Source: Chlorops oryzae (lineage: Eukaryota; Arthropoda; Insecta; Diptera; Chloropidae). Taken from it: a stretch of 64,000 nucleotides of DNA. The stretch covers positions 67,075,589-67,139,588 of the forward strand of contig CM035806.1 in the NCBI GenBank assembly GCA_020466095.1, read 5' to 3'. The notes beneath the pieces were generated by a model. It had not been told where the DNA came from, did no database searches, and worked only from the letters and a program-made list of their open reading frames with translations. A program made the position numbers and the translations under genes. Positions 8,771 through 60,943 of this stretch are shown here, piece after piece (position 1 is the first letter of the stretch; every line of letters begins with the position of its first letter).

Positions 8771-11700
8771 ATGACACCGTCTCTGGTACGGGGCTAATGG
8801 GTCTACCTAGACAAGGCAGACCGTTAGGGCGGTGGGTGGGTCCGTACTAGAAAGCCCTCAGGGTTGGACAGCTGAATATTCATCATAGTAGAGCAGCATC
8901 AGCAATGGCGCTGCGACACTTCGATGAAGAAAAGCTGGACATAATGCTGATTCAAGAACCCTGGATCGTGAAAGACATGATTAGGAGACTCGGGATATCA
9001 GCCGCCGACGCTGTTTCATTCGGGAACAGAAGGGAAGAAAAGGACCTGTATCTTAGCCAGGAAAGGGATACCATGTATCCAAATTCCGCAGCTGGGATCA
9101 CCAGACCTTACCGTGGTAAGGGTGGGTGAGGACAAAAGGTCGTTTTTGATAGCTTCCGTATACCTGCCGTATGACTCTGCAGACTTACCTCCTAGCCAGG
9201 AGATGATGAGACTGACAGAGTACTGCAGCAATAGGGAACTGGAGCTCATCATGGGTTGCGACGCAAACTCACACAATACAGTGTGGGATACAATACAGAG
9301 TCTCTTCTCGAATTTGTTGTTAAGTGCAATCTCACAATTGCAAATAGGGGAACACAACCGACCTTCGTAAACGCACGAAGGGCGGAAGTGATTGATATAA
9401 CCCTTCACAGCGATGCTATGCTGGAGAGAGTTAAAAACTGGCGGGTCGCAGATTGGACAACAATGTCCGATCATCGAGCCATTCGATTTGAGGTACTCTT
9501 TCCACACAAGCACTCAGGCAGTAACAGAGTTGCAAGGATACCCAACAACACAGACCATAACAAATATGTGTCAGAGTTACGGGAATTACTGCTACAGTTA
9601 CCGCGGAGGAAACTCAAAACCTCCTGGAATGTAGAATCAGAAACAACAGCACTTACCGCTGTAATATCTGAAGCATTCAGAAGAGCTTGTCCCCAGAGCA
9701 TCAAAGCTGAAAATTACTCTGTCACTTGGTGGAATAGGGAGCTTGAAGCCATGAAGAAGGGGACAAGAAAGGCCTTCAACAGATACATGAGAAGGAAGGA
9801 TTCCGCATCATGGGATATGTACAAGGCGAAAAAGCAAGAGTTTAAGAAAGCGTTGCGTAACCGTAAAAGGGAAACGTGGCGGGATTTCTGCTCGAGCATA
9901 AATAATACTACTCAAGCAGGAAGACTACAGAAGATGGTAACCAAAGATCTGATCTCTAGACTTGGCTTAATCCAGAAAAAGGATGGAGCTATGACAGAGT
10001 CGATTGGAGAGTCACTAAAGATTCTCATGGAGACCCATTTTCCTGGAAGCTTCCGATCGGATGACCACTGGGAGTCTCCAAAGAAGGGGGCAAACAGTGA
10101 AGACAAATCGGAAGCCGAAAGGATCGTGACAACGAGTGCGGTGCAGGGTGCCTTTTCAGCATTCGCACCCTTCAAGTCGCCGGGGCCGGACGGAATATTT
10201 CCTGCTCTTCTGCAATGGGGAAGTAACCTACTTGCGGATAGATTGACGGAATTATTCAGGACTTGCCTGGCTATTGGGTATGTTCCAAGCGCTTGGAGGG
10301 AGTCAAAAGTGACATTCCTTCCAAAACCTGGAAAAAAGGACTACACTGTTGCGAAATCTTTCAGACCTATCAGCCTCACGTCTTTCATGCTGAAAGCTAT
10401 GGAAAAGGTGATGGCTGCTTATCTGGAGGATACAGCTCTCACAGCATGTCCTCTGAGTAGATGCCAGCATGCGTACAGGGCTGGAAGATCTACCGAAACC
10501 GCCTTGCACGAAGTAGTAAGGACGGCAGCAAAGGAGCTAAATTCCGGTGGCATATCAATGGCTCTAACCATGGACATTGAGGGTGCCTTCGACAAAATAG
10601 GCTTCGGTAACTTGAGTGCTGCACTCCAAATGCGAGGGGTTAACCCACTTGTTATCAAATGGGTGGACTTCATGCTAAGGCAGAGAGCAGTGAACTTACA
10701 AAACGGACGACACAAGCTAAGGGGTACGGTAGTCAGAGGATGTCCACAGGGAGGTGTTCTCTCATCAACTCTGTGGAACATAACAATTGACTCCCTACTA
10801 CACAAGCTTGACTCAAAAGGCATACATACGATAGGGTATGCGGATGACGTAGCTTTGATGGTGAGTGGTAAGTTCCTAAGCACCATTAGAGACGTGATGA
10901 GAGGTGCTCTCAAACACGTTGAACAATGGTGTAGAGAACAAGACCTCACAGTTAACGCTGCTTAAATCAGAGATAATTCTTTTCACAAAGAAAAGAGGTC
11001 TTCTACTCGAGCCATTACAGCTCTTCGGATCGAATATTCCCGTGTCGGGGTCGGTTAAGTACTTAGGAGTGATCCTGGATACAAAACTGACCTGGAATCA
11101 ACACGTGGAGTATAAGATCCAAAAGGCTAAAAGGGCTCTATTTCAGTGTAGAAGAGTGTGCGGATTGCGTTGGGGAATAACTCCAAAATCAGTACACTGG
11201 ATCTACACGATAATGATAAGACCTGTCATAACTACGCATCTGTAGTGTGGTGGTGGAAAGCCACACAAAAGACAGTTCAAGCGAGGCTAGACAGGGTTCA
11301 GAGGCTTAGCATGTGTTGGAATTACGGGCGCAATGCGCACCACACCAACACCGGCGCTTGAAGCGATGCTGGGACTGCTTCCGTTGGATTTATTTATAAT
11401 GAAAACGGCAGCATTAACGGCAGTTCGCATGTACCGCAATTCCACTTGGAATAGGTACGGCGATGCGCGTGGACACCGTAAGATACTTGACATCGTCCAC
11501 AACGAAGTCAAGGAAACGCAAATGCCAATGCAGACTATGAGAAGAGTCAGTCTGACCGCAAAGTCACACAGAACGCTCATAGACGACGGCCGTCTGCAGG
11601 GTGAGTGCAGACGGCATGACATTTGTTTCTTCACGGATGGTTCACTAATGGATGGCAGAGCGGGGGCCGGGATCTTTTCAGAAGATCTCGGCATCACCGA

Positions 11701-12673
11701 AGGTATCCATCTAGGAAGGTTTGTGTCTGTGTATCAGGCCGAACTTTTAGCAACAGTCTGGTACATGAGTGTGCTACCAAACTACGTGAGTGCGCTTCTA
11801 GCAATGAAGTAACACTCATGTGGGTTAAAGGACACTCTGGTATCGACCAAAATGAAAGGGCAGACGACCTTGCTAGGCAGGGCTCGAGCCAGGACTATCA
11901 TGGTCCAGAGCCTTATGTTCCACTAGGGTGGAGCAAGATTACTTCGGCTATCACAAAGTGGATTAACTCAATGCATCAACGCCGTTGGTGCGAGTTGAGC
12001 ACTTGCAGACAGGCGAAGCTGGCGTTAAAAAAGCCATGGGTCACGGCGGCAACGAAGGCGCTTAGTCTTAAACGGAGCACCCTCAGCTGGTTGACATCAC
12101 TGGTAACAGGACATGGTAACTTCATGTGCCATCTCAGAAAGATGAGTCTTGCTGAAGATGACACATGTAGGTTATGCCTAGAAGACAGCAAAACAGCGGT
12201 ACACCTTGTGTGCCACTGTCCGTCACTGGCAAGTAGGAGGTTGGCGATCACGGGACACCATTGGATTGGTGAGGACGGGATTGCCGAACTTAAAATCAAA
12301 GATCTGCTTGCACTAACAGTGGCGTAGTCATGAGAGTTGAGACCGAATTATTTTCGGGACAACGACCAAGACGACGCATCTAATGAAGGTCTAACTGGGG
12401 AGGGCTAGGTGTCCTGCTATCTAGCTCACACCAGTTAGCAATCCGGTACTGACGTGCTGATCGGAGACGAACGGCAAACGTCAGTCGACTTTATTTGACT
12501 CAATATAAGGACGGAAGCCTTGTATAAGGCTTTAGCCCTCTTAGAGAGTCACGAAGGACGAAAAAGGACCCAACGCTAACGTGGTCTACTTCGGCTTATC
12601 CTTCAATTCAGTGGGGCCACTTGATGGAAGCTGAGGCTTCCCAACGTCCCACATTATTATTATTATTATTATT
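8771..12673 (+). mobile_element. 5'-truncated I/LOA-type non-LTR retrotransposon (LINE)
   Basis: A single insertion of 3.9 kb. The 14-bp duplication ATTAACCAAAAAGG lies immediately before it (8757-8770) and immediately after it (12674-12687). It ends in an (ATT)n tail (12655-12673), as in I-type elements. The coding part gives endonuclease, reverse transcriptase, RNase H and a C-terminal cysteine/histidine motif, the domain order of I/LOA-type elements. No ORF1 (gag-like) region is present, so it is 5' truncated. The 3' UTR covers about 12328-12654. The exact clade is a guess. Confidence 0.9.
8869..12327 (+). pseudogene. LINE ORF2 polyprotein (endonuclease-RT-RNase H), frameshifted
   Basis: Decayed ORF2. 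The endonuclease begins near 8869 with QLNIHHSRAASAMALRHF and LIQEPWI. The reverse transcriptase has FKSPGPDGI (about 10177), RGCPQGGVLSS (10735) and the catalytic YADD (10837). The RNase H has FTDGSLMDGRAGAGIF (11630) and WVKGHSGIDQNERADDLA (11821). A C-terminal CRLC...H...C motif follows (12169). The reading frame switches repeatedly (near 9113-9125, 9300, 10930, 11260-11330 and 11700-11800), so no full protein can be made. The longest uninterrupted segment is 9256-10965. Base composition is more GC-rich than the flanks, consistent with a fairly recent arrival, but the frameshifts show it is inactive. Confidence 0.9.
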
Positions 12674-13028: not shown

Positions 13029-14468
13029 AGGTATGGTGCAAAACTATAAACAATGAAATATTTTTTATTCATTCGTTCTTTACGAAAAAAACTGTGCACT
13101 TTTTAAAAATTTAAATTGGGCATAAACATAACTAAAGTGTCCTCTTTAGAGAGGCTACACAGTATTTTTTGTTTACACTTTTGTTTTCGTAAAATTTTTG
13201 TTGTTGTGTGAGCGCCTTTTTAGCTCCAAACAAACTAGCGGTGCATAACTATAAACAATATAATACAAAAAAGGAAAAATCTCAATCAGTAGAAATCAAA
13301 AGTTAAACAATCTTTATTTTTTTATGTTGTAAAAGCTCCCTGAACACTTATACAATTAAATATGCGATTGGGCATTGAATCGGTGAGGTCTTTCAACAAA
13401 ATCCCGTCCAAATTGTCCCATACTCGTGAAATGGCTTCTTTAAGCTCATCTACGCTTTCATATTGTTTGTAAGCTGCATAAACGCGCCTTGTAAGGATTC
13501 CCCAAAGGTTCTCGATTGGGTTTAAATCCGGAGAGCAGGCTGGCCAGAAGAGTTTTGGGATATTTTGGGCACGTAGCCAAGTCAAAGTTTGCTTACTGAC
13601 ATGTATAGGCGCATTATCCTGCTGAAATTTCCAATTTTTATCCCTATTTTGGTTTAAAAATGGGATAAGACTACACTGAAGCACATTTATGTAGTCGGTG
13701 CTTTTCATTTTCGTTGACACGAATTGCAGCTCGAGCGCACCATCCCTTGAAAACGCGCCCCAAACCATCATAGATCCGCCTCCGAAATTCCGTTTTGAGA
13801 AATATTGGGGCTCCGTTATAAGGTCGCGCCAATAGGAGTGAAAATCGTCTGGGCCATTTCTTTTCGTCGGAAAAGATTACCTTTTAATTAAAATGTAAGA
13901 GCAGATCGAATGGTTTGAAACTTAAAACGAGCTAACCGTGGACCAGTCTGTTCTCATATTTTCTCGGGCAAAGCAGAGCCGGCGTTCTTTATGGCTGCTT
14001 GTCAAACGGGGAGCAGGCTTCATTTTTTGATGAACTAAATAAGGCGTGTTCGTAATTAGCCGAAGAACTGTCCATTTCGACACCTTATTGTCCACAGACG
14101 ATGCCAACTGCTTGCTGCTTAGGGATGAGTTGGCTGCTTTTCTCAATAGTTTGCGCTCCTCACGCTCCGAAAGCTTCTTTTTCCGGCCTCCTCGCTTATT
14201 TTTTCCATAATTTTGTGGATTTTGCAAAAAATGGTGCACACCATACCAGCTCCTTTTGATTTTTTTTGCAATTTCTTGCGTTGTCAGCCCTTGCTCTCTG
14301 AATGCAAGGATTTGACCTTGTTCGGTTCCACTTAAGAACTTACCACGCGGCATTTCGTCAAAGAATGAGAAAAATAGTACAAGCTATCACTTTCGAATAA
14401 CATTGCAGTAATAAGCTGTCATTTACATCGATTTTCTATTATATTGTTTATAGTTTTGCACCATACCT
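13029..14468 (-). mobile_element. Tc1-like DNA transposon with 26-bp terminal inverted repeats
   Basis: Ends are exact 26-bp inverted repeats starting AGGTATGGTGCAAAACTATA (13029-13054 and 14443-14468). TA lies on each side (13027-13028, 14469-14470), as expected for Tc1/mariner. Total 1440 bp with one transposase on the minus strand. A second copy of the terminal motif (GGTGCATAACTATAAACAAT) occurs inside the left end at about 13242, so the left end has an inner direct repeat, similar to IR/DR-type elements. Confidence 0.92.
13322..14353 (-). pseudogene. Tc1-like DD34E transposase, probable intron plus one frameshift
   Basis: Cut-and-paste transposase. The first part (14353-13937) has a helix-turn-helix start (MPRGKFLSGTEQGQILAF) and a basic GRRKK region. 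The second part has FSDEK (first Asp), QDNAPIH (second Asp) and SPDLNPIENLWG (Glu). Exactly 34 residues separate the second Asp and the Glu, so the DD34E triad is kept. Between the parts, 13936-13881 reads GT...AG on the minus strand (56 nt), and removing it joins the conserved core in frame; Minos transposase is known to have a short intron, so this is plausible. A further one-base shift in an A/T run near 13857-13859 breaks exon 2, so the copy is probably inactive unless that is a sequencing error. Confidence 0.85.
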
Positions 14469-29959: not shown

Positions 29960-30165
29960 CATATCAAAATATTGTATGAAACAGCTACATTCCTTTTCTT
30001 CCATAGAGCATATTTAAGGGCGTCTTGTAGCTTCAAAATTAAAGCTATGGAGAAGAAAATTTGTGATATTTTTATTGAATGTATTTTCTAAGTTACAGCA
30101 AAGATTTTTTTGGAAAATCTTCACATTTATTTTTCACCATTTTTGGCAGCACTCGTTACACTGTG
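29960..30165. mobile_element. Transib-like element, right end only
   Basis: The right terminus is CACTGTG (30159-30165). Read inward on the minus strand it gives CACAGTG, 12 bases, then CCAAAAATG, the same layout as both ends of 42407-43003. CGACG follows it (30166-30170), a 5-bp GC-rich stretch like the duplications of the two full copies. No left end was found, so the left boundary is nominal. Confidence 0.5.
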
Positions 30166-30499
30166 CGACGATGGAATCCTGGGATTCTTCGCGTAAGCTG
30201 AAGAAGACTTCGAGGCGTCTGAATAAACTATTTTGAATAGCTATTAGCGCTTGGCCCAAAAATATTACGTAATTTTGCAGCTTGTCCATTTTGACTTTAA
30301 GGGTTGTTAAGGATGGCATTAACAGTCCAAAGTATTTATTTTTTTTATTTATTGAAGTCAATGAAGGTAAATCTTCTTACAGACTTTAAAAAAAAAAGGA
30401 AAAAACACAAAAAAACATGTTCAATATTAAATATACTTAATTTCAAAATATAACTTAAATATACAAATTATCTAAAAATATCATTTAAAATACATTTCA

Positions 30500-32110: not shown

Positions 32111-32928
32111 TTGTTATTATTAAAGCACATTGTGATGCATAGGTATATGGGATGTATGCCGCAATATGAATACATTTGCACTGAGAGCATCTATATGCAG
32201 TTGGGTTTTTTTAAATATTTCAAAAACTATGCTTTTAATTTCAATAATTTTTTTTTTAAACCAAAGGTAATGCAATGAGGTATTATTTAAAAATAACTAA
32301 GGAATGGCGCTAATGCGAAAAAACACTAATAAAAGTAATTTCATTTTTCTTTCCTCTTTTTTAGAAAACTTTTTCTGAGTGTGAGGCCCCATCTACACGA
32401 TGCAAGTTTTCACTTGGCAAGTCACTTCTGCAAGAACTTGGCAAGCAGATTGCATCGTGTAGAATGCTTGCAAGGACTTGCGGCAGGTTTTTCAAGACTT
32501 CCATGCAAGAACTTGCCTAAAGAAAATTCGGATCGTGTAGAAATACAATCTTCCAATTTGTTAGAAGTTTTTTTTTTACTTGCATGCTTACAAACTGTCA
32601 GGTTCAAGATACTCAAAAAAGTAGCGAGTGCAATGTTTCAATATTTATTATTTTCTACATAGCTAGCTATTTCTTGAATTAAATTCTTCGCATTTTTTTA
32701 TCCGCTATTCGCTTCCAGTTGCAGGTATCTGCCATCATATTAGGGATGGGCAAAAAACATCGATATATCGAAACATCGATATTTTCAAAACGATATATCG
32801 AAAATTTCTACTGATATTTTTGTTCAGCGATATATCGTACATCGATGTATTTTTTAGGATATCGAAAACGATATTTTTCTCACATCAAAAATTATAAAAC
32901 GCATTCTAGCGCGAAAGACGAGGCGTCG

Positions 32929-33996
32929 CACAGTGCTTCGATCCCATACATTCGATGGACAAAAATAGAAAGAAGTGTCGCAGGGCAATGAAATTTGGCA
33001 CAAGCCCCTAATATGGCTTAATTAAGAAAATTTCGAAGTTTCATCAAAATTGACCCCACCCATCACCCACCGCCCATACCACCCAAAGTTATTTTTGGCT
33101 ATGAAAATGGATATTTTGCTACAAATTTCTTAAAAATTGGGGGAAGAGCATATACATATGCTATCTTATCAAAACATAATATTTCCTCCATTAATTTTGT
33201 AAGATTTTTATTACTGTTTTCACGTTTGCGTCTTAAGTCTTTTCGCAGACAGTTCTGTTAAAAAAACGAGAGAGATAAAGCAAGGACTTAAGACTTAAAT
33301 TTGCTCAATAATCGGCCACAGTTTTCTAAAATTGCAACGAAAAGCAACGACGGTAAAGACTTATAAATGCATGCACATTTCATAAATATTCAAAAGCATA
33401 CTTTTTGGCTGAATTTAAGAATGTTTACTAACAAAGAAAACTTTAGTATAAATCATGAAAAAATACATATTTAAAATCTTATTTTTCTTTATTTGTTGGT
33501 TAGATAGAAGTCTGATTTTTTCATAACTTATTAGAGGCATATGTAAGGTATTAAAAATAGGAATAAAAAAACAACCGTTTTTCCGTATTTTTTTTTTACT
33601 CCAATAAAGTTTTGTAATTTTTGAATATCCAACCAAAAATTTGTGTTTTTAAAGCAAAAAACAAAATGACATTAAGCCCCTTGGCCATAAAGTATATTTT
33701 TTATTTATTACTTGTATATTGAAGAAGTCAAAAAATAAATTTGAAGTAATTTCACGAAAAATAAATTTTTGACATTATTTTTAGTGAATCGACTTGAGAG
33801 AATTATTTAGTTAAAGCAGTTTTGCTTAAAATCGTCTTAGTTGAGCGGCCTCTAGTGGTGATATAAAGAGTCAAACCATTAATATTTTTCGATAATTATA
33901 TTAGTTGTTTTATTATCTCTCCGAAAATATATATTTCATCAATATATTAAAACAATTTTTTTTTTTGGATTTTTGACTATGGAACGAAGCACTGTG
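32929..33996. mobile_element. Transib-like non-autonomous element with CACAGTG ends
   Basis: CACAGTGCTTCG starts at 32929 and CGAAGCACTGTG ends at 33996. CGTCG flanks both sides (32924-32928, 33997-34001). A 5-bp GC-rich duplication with CAC...-starting ends is the Transib hallmark. The left end reads CACAGTG, 23 bases, ACAAAAATA; the right end reads CACAGTG, 13 bases, TCAAAAATC. These resemble V(D)J heptamer-spacer-nonamer signals. Its left sub-terminal sequence is homologous to 42407-43003. No transposase ORF in 1068 bp. Confidence 0.75.
33228..33300. repeat. relative of the 24525 hairpin
   Basis: GTCTTAAGTCTTTTCGC, a loop with GACAGTTCTGTT, and GGACTTAAGAC. The loop as well as the arms match 24525-24595, so the two are homologous and not chance palindromes. 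It lies inside the Transib-like element. Confidence 0.55.
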
Positions 33997-34328
33997 CGTC
34001 GCATACAGTTTCAATATAACCTCTTGAAGTCAGAAGGTTTTAATTTTATCACATTGCCCTGACGAGCGCAACTAACCGTTCTACTTTGGTGATACACCCG
34101 ATACACCCCACTGTACACAATCATGTTGCCTGCAAGTATTGCATAATGCCAAGGCGTATAAAAAATGTCACTTTTTAAAGACTTAGGAAGAAGAAATTTA
34201 AAAAAAATAGAGCGATAAATTTCTTATTTTTGAATTTCCGGATAACCGCTCTACATTTAGAATAACTCCTTGCAATAAAATGTCGGTCTTCCGGGAGGAC
34301 CTCATCATGCATACAGTTTTTGCCCTAA

Positions 34329-42248: not shown

Positions 42249-42406
42249 TGGGGTCTGGGATTAAGAACTCTATAGTTGAGAGTTTTTTACAAAAGAGTAG
42301 GTTCCTTGTAATACGACAATTTCAGATCCAATGATAAGATCCAATAAGTTATATGACACCCCATGAATAATAAACTGCAAAAGCTGCATTAGCCGGATTA
42401 CCGGCA

Positions 42407-43003
42407 CACAGTGCCCATCTTGTGGCCAAAAATAGAAGGAGTTCCGCTAGAGCAATGAATTTTTCTTTGTTTGAAATAGGCATCATAACTTCCAAAGCCA
42501 CAAGCGAATCGACTCAATAAGTATTTCGTTTTATAATAAATAGTACTTAAAAAAATATATATAAAAAATTTGCGGAACACCTTTTTCGTAAATTTTTTTT
42601 AATGATTTAAAAATTTTTGAAATTCTTAGCTTTTACTCCTACAAACTCAATTTTTCTAACTAACGCGTTTAAATTAAAAGAAAAAACTATTTTCAAAATC
42701 ATATTGAAAATTTTTTATATTTTCCATTGATATATAAAACATACATATGTATATGTATATTCGTTACGGTTTGCTTATTTAATTTCCATTTAATCTTAGA
42801 CACGTTGAAGCGATACTGACATTAGCAAAACTGTGTTTCTTTCAAAGCGTAACTTTAAGGGCACAAAAAATTTTAGCTAAAATACCTAAGGACTTGAAAT
42901 TTTGGATTTTACTTATTCAGAGTATTTTTAAGAATTCTGGAAAAAAATTTCGAAAATGCCACTTTTGATTTTTAACATTTTTGGCCGCAAGTGCGACACT
43001 GTG
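42407..43003. mobile_element. Transib-like non-autonomous element with CACAGTG ends
   Basis: CACAGTG starts at 42407 and CACTGTG ends at 43003. CGGCA is duplicated on both sides (42402-42406, 43004-43008). Both ends read CACAGTG, 12 bases, CCAAAAAT(A/G), i.e. a 12-spacer recombination-signal-like layout. GGCCAAAAATAGAAGGAG at the left matches GGACAAAAATAGAAAGAAG of 32929-33996. 597 bp, no ORF. Confidence 0.78.
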
Positions 43004-43195
43004 CGGCAGCTTGTCCTCGAACCGAAGAAATTTCGATTTTCAGAAGAGTTGACTTTGTATCACAGAATATTTGCATTGTGGTTGGAATTCAAGATCAAAT
43101 GTTTTTTTTTGTTTTAACTTTAGGATTTTCTTCTTTGAATATCAAATATTTTAAAAGGAATATATAAATAAATGAATGATTTTCCTTTCGATCCT

Positions 43196-49395: not shown

Positions 49396-50297
49396 CACAG
49401 TGCAACACATAATTTCCGAACCACTTCTTGTTTGGCGTTCCTGAAAATACTTACCAAACCCAGAAAAACTACGTTTTTCGTTTTGCCAAATTGGCTACCG
49501 TTCGCGAGATATGGCGGTTCAAAGTTTTTGGCTCCAAGGGGATTTTGTGCATTTTTTCCTTCAATAGTTATAGAATATATTTGAAATTTTTTAAAGTTAT
49601 TGTATCCTTAAATAAGCTAACTTAAATACAAAATCAAGATAAATACAAATTTTTTAAAACTAACGGTGTAAAGGCTGTAGTACATGAGATGTAAAAAGCC
49701 ACATTTATATGTAGCTCTGACGTAATTTGGACGTCAGGAAGTTTTTGAATACACTATATGTAGCCATTTTAAAAACTTTCTGACGTCAAAATGATGTCAG
49801 AGCTACATATGAATGTGGCTTTTAACATCTCATGTACTACAGCCTTAAGTCAAAGTCAAAAAACTGTGAAATTTTAGAAAAATTTTGATTATTTCTTGAA
49901 TTTGAATGAAAATAACTTAACAACAAGCTGTTACCTTTTTGATATTGTAATTTTAAATTGTAGGCCAATCAATTATGTGTACATATGTGAAATTAGAGAA
50001 CGGCAGCACATACCATTTTCATGATATAAATTTTTTTCTATAACAACTCAATGTCGAGATTTTTATACATAAGCAACACAATTTTTAAACGAAAAATTCA
50101 CTTCTTTTTCGTTCCGAAAACAAATTACGACTAGATGAATTTAAAATATTTGGTCAGGGAAAAATAGAGCAATTTGTTCAAAATAACACTTGGAAAGAAA
50201 AAAAAAAAACGTAGTTTTTCTAGGTTTAGTAAGTACTTTCAGGAACGCCAAACAAAAAGCGGTTCGGAGTCGATGATCTGAAAAATGTTGCACTGTG
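49396..50297. mobile_element. element with ~85-bp ends (CACAGTGCAACA) and a nested MITE
   Basis: CACAGTGCAACACATAATTT and inverse CACTGTG at 50291-50297. The inverse similarity continues for about 85 bp (GTTTGGCGTTCCTGAAA, CTACGTTTTT). TAA on both sides. Although it starts CACAGTG it lacks a 5-bp GC-rich duplication, so I do not group it with the Transib-like elements. MITE 49672-49845 is inside. Confidence 0.7.
49672..49845. mobile_element. 174-bp TAA-flanked palindromic MITE
   Basis: AGGCTGTAGTACATGAGATG and its inverse, with TAA at 49669-49671 and 49846-49848. The inner arms TAGCTCTGACGT / GTCAGAGCTA pair too. Confidence 0.85.
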
Positions 50298-59650: not shown

Positions 59651-60943
59651 ACAGGTTGGCTGATAAGTCCCCGGTCTAACAAAGAAAAACACATTTTTTT
59701 GTCAAAATTCGTTTTTATTATTCAACATAGTTACCTTCAAGAGCGATACAACGATTATAACGACCTTCCAATTTTTTGATACCATTTTGGTAGTACTCCT
59801 TCGGTTTTGCCTCAAAATAGGCCTCAGTTTCGGCGATCACCTCTTCATCGCAGCCAAATTTTTTCCCTGCGAGCATCCTTTTGAGGTCTGAGAACAAGAA
59901 AAAGTCGCTGGGGGCCAGATCTGGAGAATACGGTGGGTGGGGAAGCAATTCGAAGCCTAATTCATGCATTTTTGCCATCGTTCTTAATGACTTGTGGCAC
60001 GGTGCGTTGTCTTGGTGGAACAACACTTTTTTATTCTTCATATGGGGCCGTTTTGCCGCGATTTCGACCTTCAAACACTCCAATAACGACATATAATAAA
60101 CACTGTTGATGGTTTTTCCCTTCTCAAGATAATCGATAAAGATTATTCCATGCCCATCCCAAAAAACAGAGGCCATTACTTTGCCAGCGGACTTTTGAGT
60201 CTTTCCACGCTTGGGAGACGGTTCACCGATCGCTGTCCACTCAGCCGACTGTCGATTGGACTCAGGAGTGTAGTGATAGAGCCATGTTTCATCCATTGTC
60301 ACATATCGACGCAAAAACTCGGGTGTATTGCGAGTTAACAGCTGCAAACACCGCTCAGAATCATCAACACGTTGTTGTTTTTGGTCAAATGTGAGCTCGC
60401 GCGGCACCCATTTTGCACAGAGGTTTTTCATATCCAAATATTGATGAATGATATGACCAACACGTTCCTTTGATATCTTTAAGGCCTCTGCTATCTCGAT
60501 CAACTTCATTTTACGGTCATTCAAAATCATTTTGTGAATTTTTTTGATGTTTTCGTCGGTAACCACCTCTTTCGGGCGTCCACTGCGTTCACCGTCCTCC
60601 GTGCTCATTTCACCACGCTTGAATTTTGCATACCAATCAATTATTGTTGATTTTCCTGGGGCAAAGTCCGGAAACTCATTATCAAGCCAAGTTTTTGCTT
60701 CCAATGTATTTTTTCCCTTCAGAAAACAGTATTTTATCAAAACACGAAATTCCTTTTTTTCCATTTTTTTCACAATAACAAAAGTTGCTTCACAAAAGAC
60801 GCTCTATCTCACAAACTAATTGACCTTCAGACGTCAAATTTTGACACGAATCATTTGAAGGTTGCCACTATATAAAAATACTATGCATTTAATACTAGCG
60901 ACGCCATCTATGTGTCAGACCGGGGACTTCTCAGCCAACCTGT
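59651..60943 (-). mobile_element. mariner element of the irritans group (Himar1-like), apparently complete
   Basis: 27-bp inverted ends start ACAGGTTGGCTGATAAGTCC (59651-59677 and 60917-60943) and differ at one base. TA flanks each side (59649-59650, 60944-60945). 1293 bp with a single intact transposase. The end sequence is what I know for Himar1. Confidence 0.95.
59718..60764 (-). CDS. mariner transposase, full length, DD34D triad intact
   Basis: Cut-and-paste transposase of 348 residues, starting MEKKEFRVLIKYCFLKGKN (60764); an upstream in-frame ATG adds MKK. The N-terminal half holds two helix-turn-helix DNA-binding motifs and the WVPRELT linker. The catalytic triad is kept: TMDETWL (first Asp), HQDNAPCH (second Asp) and YSPDLAPSDFF (third Asp), with 34 residues between the last two. 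There is no stop or frameshift, and the length equals that of Himar1-type transposases. Near-identity to Himar1 is from memory and not from an alignment. It is the one element in the window that looks able to move; scattered substitutions (for example NSVYY where I expect NSDYY) could still reduce activity. Confidence 0.95.
   Translation of the reverse strand: MEKKEFRVLIKYCFLKGKNTLEAKTWLDNEFPDFAPGKSTIIDWYAKFKRGEMSTEDGERSGRPKEVVTDENIKKIHKMILNDRKMKLIEIAEALKISKERVGHIIHQYLDMKNLCAKWVPRELTFDQKQQRVDDSERCLQLLTRNTPEFLRRYVTMDETWLYHYTPESNRQSAEWTAIGEPSPKRGKTQKSAGKVMASVFWDGHGIIFIDYLEKGKTINSVYYMSLLECLKVEIAAKRPHMKNKKVLFHQDNAPCHKSLRTMAKMHELGFELLPHPPYSPDLAPSDFFLFSDLKRMLAGKKFGCDEEVIAETEAYFEAKPKEYYQNGIKKLEGRYNRCIALEGNYVE

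Follow-up and report, generated by a model that had tools for sequence, protein, structure and literature searches.

A non-autonomous Transib transposon with 23/13 recombination-signal-like ends in Chlorops oryzae and related 23/12 elements in the same genome

Transib transposons leave G/C-rich duplications of 5 bp at their target sites (PMC8289069; PMC3276498). For the Drosophila melanogaster Transib hopper, 5-bp duplications were reported at 532 of 533 sites, with a G/C-rich palindromic target (PMC3276498). Most Transib families, Hztransib from Helicoverpa zea included, are described as having symmetric ends (PMC8289069). Asymmetric families have been reported as well: Transib5 of D. melanogaster and Transib2, N1, N2 and N3 of Anopheles gambiae have 12/23-asymmetric ends, in which an RSS-like heptamer and nonamer are separated by spacers of 23 ± 1 and 12 ± 1 bp (PMC8355894, after Kapitonov and Jurka 2005). 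It is disputed whether the 12/23 asymmetry of antibody-gene recombination goes back to transposon ends or was added later, together with RAG2 (PMC8355894; PMC8289069). The transposons whose ends are discussed there alongside functional work are Hztransib, which is symmetric, and ProtoRAG of amphioxus, which is 27/31 (PMC8355894; PMC8289069).

Here we analysed a window of 64,000 nucleotides from Chlorops oryzae (contig CM035806.1, positions 67,075,589 to 67,139,588 of the forward strand) and followed one of its elements through the genome. Because 12/23-like Transibs have already been reported in PMC8355894, this focal element belongs to a known kind. It is likened to Transib5, Transib2, N1, N2 and N3 by description, not by descent. 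The situation differs from those families in that the 23/13 focal family and several 23/12 families share one genome, and in that one of these families is represented by four near-identical transposase-bearing copies. A literature search over titles and the opening lines of abstracts, with most subscription journals outside its reach, brought up no description of a 12/23-rich Transib genome, nor of a 12/23 Transib that was active recently.

With V(D)J signals the ends share an identical consensus heptamer, CACAGTG, and spacers of 23 and 12-13 bp. The V(D)J nonamer consensus is given as ACAAAAACC (PMC8289069), as against ACAAAAATA and ACAAAAATC here, and the signals described here flank a transposon, not gene segments. 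The RAG2 profile PF03089 had 0 matches in the genome and, in a comparison without a positive control, 0 in 14 control genomes too. ProtoRAG is alike in its RAG1-type transposase, asymmetric ends, CAC start and 5-bp duplications (PMC8289069); it is described as differing in the 27/31-bp separation and in having no distinctive nonamer (PMC8289069; PMC8355894).

The focal element and its family

The focal element occupies positions 32929-33996 of the window (1,068 bp, forward strand), begins with CACAGTG, ends with CACTGTG and is enclosed by two equal copies of CGTCG, at 32924-32928 and 33997-34001 (forward strand). At the left end the heptamer CACAGTG (32929-32935) is followed by a 23-bp spacer (32936-32958) and the nonamer-like block ACAAAAATA (32959-32967), all on the forward strand. 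On the reverse strand, the right end consists of the heptamer CACAGTG (33990-33996), a 13-bp spacer (33977-33989) and the nonamer-like block TCAAAAATC (33968-33976). In these points, i.e. inverted heptamers, exact CGTCG duplications and A-rich blocks at 23 and 13 bp, the first-pass annotation was exact to the base. A 22-base inverted pair across the duplications and ends has a complementarity of 91%. The longest stop-free frame has 79 codons and no transposase is encoded; hence the element is a non-autonomous derivative and not an autonomous Transib. The window was also scanned blind; CACnnTG ends had to lie 150-6000 bp apart, enclosed by a perfect duplication of 5 bp containing at least 3 G/C. 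This yielded two pairs, the focal element and one at 42407-43003, and the ends of the former match better. For CACAGTG as such, the window has 11 occurrences where 3.85 would be expected, and 0 of 100 shuffles reached 11. By its G/C-rich 5-bp duplications and its CAC-starting, inverted RSS-like ends the focal element is a Transib. The Transib-like identity that had been proposed gains further support from related ends around Transib transposase genes, described below.

Are these ends peculiar to one copy? Allowing 3 mismatches at most, the 39-base left end including the 23-bp spacer was found at 221 sites of the genome, against 0 for the reversed control. Spacing and sequence thus are inherited features of a family, and the chance origin for which the earlier reading had left room is not borne out. 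A genome search with the element gave 62 matches from the 40 scored of 1,419 candidates, so that copy numbers are lower bounds. Forty copies, the focal one included, were fetched as a family sample. The left spacer had 23 bp in 36 of 38 parsed ends; L049 has 29 bp, and the nominal 19 bp of L069 is a parsing artefact, being 23 bp by eye. The right spacer had 13 bp in 32 of 32 parsed ends. The right-hand block was ACAAAAATC at 24 of these 32 ends, and TCAAAAATC is the focal copy's own variant. Ends that were not parsed are missing, replaced or substituted within the matched motif. Perfect 5-bp duplications flanked 25 of the 31 two-ended copies, and their consensus is the palindrome CGNCG. Identity between the focal copy and the 39 others, taken along the longest stretch that aligned, is 86-94%; the focal copy therefore is not a recent insertion. 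Within the same family L050-L070 make up another size class, of about 1.43 kb; here two matches overlap at about 525-885 of the query, which amounts to an internal duplication when compared with the focal copy.

Conservation of spacer length had been proposed as a check, and among the fetched copies it holds, with 23 bp on one side and 13 bp on the other. The suspected insert of about 10 bp in the left spacer is not a one-off: with 23 bp as the standard length at 36 of 38 family left ends, a single insertion event in this copy is ruled out. Of the 12/23-like pair that had been suggested, the asymmetry stands, and an exact 23/12 arrangement does not since the focal pair is 23/13. Across the parsed copies, L049 apart, the spacers remain within 23 ± 1 and 12 ± 1 bp, which places the element in the 12/23-asymmetric type.

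A CACAGTG pair at 49396-50297 was considered as a third Transib of the window and rejected because TAA stands on both sides and no 5-bp G/C-rich duplication is present. It bounds an element with imperfect inverted repeats starting CACAGTGCAACA, possibly a PIF/Harbinger-like MITE. The window further contains an open stop-to-stop frame of 361 codons with mariner-type transposase domains PF01359 and DDE_3 above cut-offs (59718-60803, reverse strand), a Tc1/Tc3-like transposase in two frame pieces (HTH_Tnp_Tc3_1 and DDE_3; 13322-14383, reverse strand) and a fragment of a non-LTR retrotransposon with endonuclease, reverse transcriptase and RNase H domains (9235-12327).

Transib genes and end types in the genome

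The second Transib-type element of the window, at 42407-43003 (597 bp, forward strand; 42402-43008 with the CGGCA duplication on both sides), has the ends CACAGTG-N12-CCAAAAATA and CACAGTG-N12-CCAAAAATG. It is a 12/12 element with a perfect duplication. No other near-full-length match above 77% identity was found among the 40 scored of 342 candidates. At the right end, 14 of 17 fetched relatives have CACAGTG-N12-CCAA, and one relative, L085, has 23/12 ends. The left end of the 12/12 element resembles the left ends of its relatives minus about 11 bp. Left ends of this type number 205 in all; 95 of the 100 that were listed have a spacer of 23 bp, three have 22 or 24 bp, one has 12 bp (the element itself) and one, L094, has 11 bp. 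L094 presents its left-type end with a CGACG flank at position 55 (C1:93522004), and no CACAGTG right end was present in the 1.9 kb fetched. This element may have jumped as 12/12, or one helical turn may have dropped out of it once it was inserted. In addition, a solitary right-type Transib end lies on the reverse strand at 30138-30170, composed of CGTCG, CACAGTG, a 12-bp spacer and CCAAAAATG; a partner was not found in the window scan.

Which transposases are available in this genome? With the profile of the RAG1 core, 27 genome matches were obtained at an E-value of 1 or less, five of them above the curated cut-off; a protein search with the L036 transposase gave 83 matches. Thirty transposase loci were fetched with flanks and their ends were read. 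L034-L037 constitute a family of four copies of 3,048-3,049 bp, 99.7-99.8% identical, which reside at four separate loci between perfect duplications (CGCCG, CGGCG, CGTCG and CGCCG). The transposase frame of L034 contains one stop. The upstream end is CACAGTG-N12-CAGAAATTC, the downstream end CACAGTG-N23-CAAAAAATA. The L036 transposase is homologous over about 450 residues to the Hztransib structure 6pqn (E 1.1e-116). The catalytic triad of Hztransib is given as D126, D225 and E436 (PMC6941560); mapped by hand through the L036-Hztransib alignment, the three matching acids are conserved in 14 of 14 aligned transposases. The ends of Hztransib itself differ: according to the literature they are symmetric and resemble a nonamer little or not at all (PMC8289069).

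Further 23/12 elements carry transposase genes or their remains. L097 is a decayed relative of L034-L037 with the same ends. L029 has 23/12 ends and a dead transposase remnant, 72% identical over 103 residues. L088 has 23/12 ends in the same orientation, a GGCCG duplication and a transposase 36-37% identical to that of L036. In the family made up of L034-L037 and L097, and likewise in L029 and L088, the gene has its 12-type end upstream and its 23-type end downstream. At L095 the upstream end alone was found, with a spacer of 12 bp. Six families (L019/L021, L026, L028, L030, L038 and L092) have A-rich blocks at 22-24 bp at both ends. Both ends were also present in L031 (duplication 4/5), L033, L090 and L093, with the A-block unclear at one or both. 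Reading gave no acceptable end pair at L020, L022-L025, L027, L032, L091, L096 and L098, and one end at L089. The search for a Transib transposase with the same ends, which had been suggested earlier, thus succeeded as to kind, L036 being a Transib; a transposase-bearing copy with exactly the focal ends was not found. Of the 221 focal left ends 100 were listed, and all of these are more than 15 kb from each of the 83 transposase matches, the closest approach being 15.6 kb. By its inner left end (below) the nearest transposase-bearing relative of the focal element is L029, the transposase of which is dead.

The frequency of end types was examined by an unbiased survey with the pattern CGNCG-CACAGTG-N5 to N35-CAAAAAT. 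It occurred at 1,009 genome sites, and the reversed control gave 0. The first 100 sites, which were listed, lie within the first 44 Mb of C1. When the flank was narrowed to CGWCG (541 sites, control 0), the listing reached 63 Mb, for CGWCG sites alone. Three entries that matched an already included heptamer a second time were removed; the remaining 132 sites represent one chromosome stretch and not a random sample. The spacers had 11-13 bp at 55 sites, 14-19 bp at 1, 20-24 bp at 73 and other lengths at 3 (8, 29 and 33 bp). Facing neighbours less than 6 kb apart were taken as pairs (n = 22). A 12-13 end was joined with a 23-24 end in 19 of these. Two pairs were 22/22, and in one a 23-bp end faced a nominal 19-bp end whose nearer A-block is at 11; 12/12 or 23/23 pairs were absent from the 22. 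The 12/12 element of the window falls outside this picture. The surveyed sites are related copies, so the counts do not represent independent events. At 98 sites 74 distinct sequences of spacer plus block were counted; 29 of these have a 23-bp spacer and 24 a 12-bp one. This indicates that length is kept while sequence varies.

How are the asymmetric families related to each other? Inner ends (bases 41-200) were compared and z-scores were derived from 300 letter shuffles. The inner left end of the focal element resembled the 23-type ends of L029 (z 31), L088 (z 9.4) and L036 (z 7.3); its likeness to that of L085 was weak (z 4.9). No resemblance was seen to five symmetric families, whose 3' ends gave z from -1.0 to 1.0. 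Other 23-type pairs were alike as well, L029 with L088 (z 10.4) and L036 with L029 (z 11.1). L036 with L088 reached z 5.1 with a score below the best of 300 shuffles, and L036 with L085 z 1.0. Inner ends of asymmetric and symmetric elements compared at z 2.9 or less. Judged by these similarities, a 23-type end module appears to be shared, firmly so for L029, the focal family and L088, and on weaker grounds for L036-L088 and for L085. Among the 12-type ends a resemblance was seen in L036-L029 alone (z 6.1), the other nine pairs being at or below 2.7. In the transposase tree L036 groups with L026 and L019 (96/96). Forcing L036, L035, L088 and L089 together cost 17.5 log-likelihood units (AU p 0.021), a test weakened by long branches and by the choice of the group after the ends had been seen. 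A single origin of asymmetry on the transposase tree thus is mildly rejected, yet the 23-type ends are alike. Similar 23-type ends on transposases as distant as those of L036 and L088 suggest an exchange of ends between Transib lineages or, alternatively, a misleading tree.

Spacer length and transposition

We consider the focal element, with a probability of roughly 85%, to be a non-autonomous cut-and-paste Transib transposon mobilized in trans by a Transib transposase, a relative of the RAG1 core. Its anatomy, its duplications, the constancy of 23 and 13 bp in the family and the co-resident 23/12 Transib transposase genes are observed. According to this proposal, the transposase would act in trans on an element without a protein of its own, bind both ends at their heptamer and A-rich block and pair them, as the chemistry of Hztransib and RAG would lead one to expect. 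DNA would then be cut where CAC meets the flank, with a hairpin formed on the flanking side, a nick-and-hairpin chemistry taken from the Hztransib work (PMC6941560), and the ends would be joined, staggered by 5 bp, into a CGNCG site. As RAG does, the enzyme may prefer one 23-type with one 12-type end, and such a pairing preference could keep the spacers about one helical turn apart. Against this proposal speak the 12/12 element of the window, the 11-bp end of L094 and the common symmetric 22-24 families. A chance resemblance in an element from another superfamily might draw on the frequency of CACAGTG alone, with 11 in the window including the pair that bounds the different element at 49396-50297. 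It is all but excluded by the CGNCG duplications of 5 bp, the 221 left ends and the similar ends on Transib transposase genes.

Does the spacer matter to the enzyme? A true 12/23 rule in the Transib transposases of this genome, enforced by the RAG1-like enzyme without RAG2, is a tentative reading to which we give distinctly less than even odds. Because the copies share ancestry, a constant spacer length in one family says little for selection. Also short of even odds is the idea that asymmetry was merely inherited. An ancestral family would have lost about 11 bp at one end, the spacer length would be without function and the enzyme would recognize mainly the heptamer and the first 15 bp or so. 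This agrees with a proposal that RAG-like transposons rely on the terminal 15-17 bp or so and are rather insensitive to asymmetry (PMC7204232), and with the symmetric 22-24 families in the same genome. In addition, the 23-type ends of several asymmetric families are alike over the 160 inner bases, which leaves few independent cases. Against mere inheritance speak spacers that differ in sequence between families and nevertheless stay near 23 or 12 bp, the single spacer of 14-19 bp among 132, and 23/12 ends in two transposase lineages as far apart as L036 and L088.

The nonamer-like blocks call for caution, too. Some 12-type ends possess a second A-rich block near 23-24 in addition to that at 12-13, namely the right ends of the focal element, of L085 and of the 42407-43003 element, and the end at 30165. 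The enzyme could read such ends as 23-type, and possibly all 12-type ends are 23-type ends in disguise, the elements being functionally symmetric 23/23. We consider this improbable, since the 12-type ends of L036, L029 and L095 are T-rich at 23 (at most 2 A in 9) and since no A-run occupies position 12 in any of the five 23-type ends scored from asymmetric elements (3 A in 9 at the most). Scored against ACAAAAACC alone, two of eight 12-type ends have their best match at another position, 20 for L088 upstream and 21 for L085 right. The upstream block of L036 is weak by this measure (5/9, at 11 or 13), and the upstream end of L026, which belongs to a symmetric family and is called 23-type here, scores equally at 12. 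The block at 12 is the feature that 12-type ends have in common, and a putative recognition block.

Transposase-bearing 23/12 copies, non-autonomous 23/12 and 23/13 elements, symmetric 22-24 families and a 12/12 element coexist in one genome. With such a range of end types the 12/23 rule is directly testable on natural substrates. If the Transib transposases of C. oryzae do obey it, the 12/23 rule would either pre-date adaptive immunity or have arisen separately, and it could be studied in an element that has moved recently.
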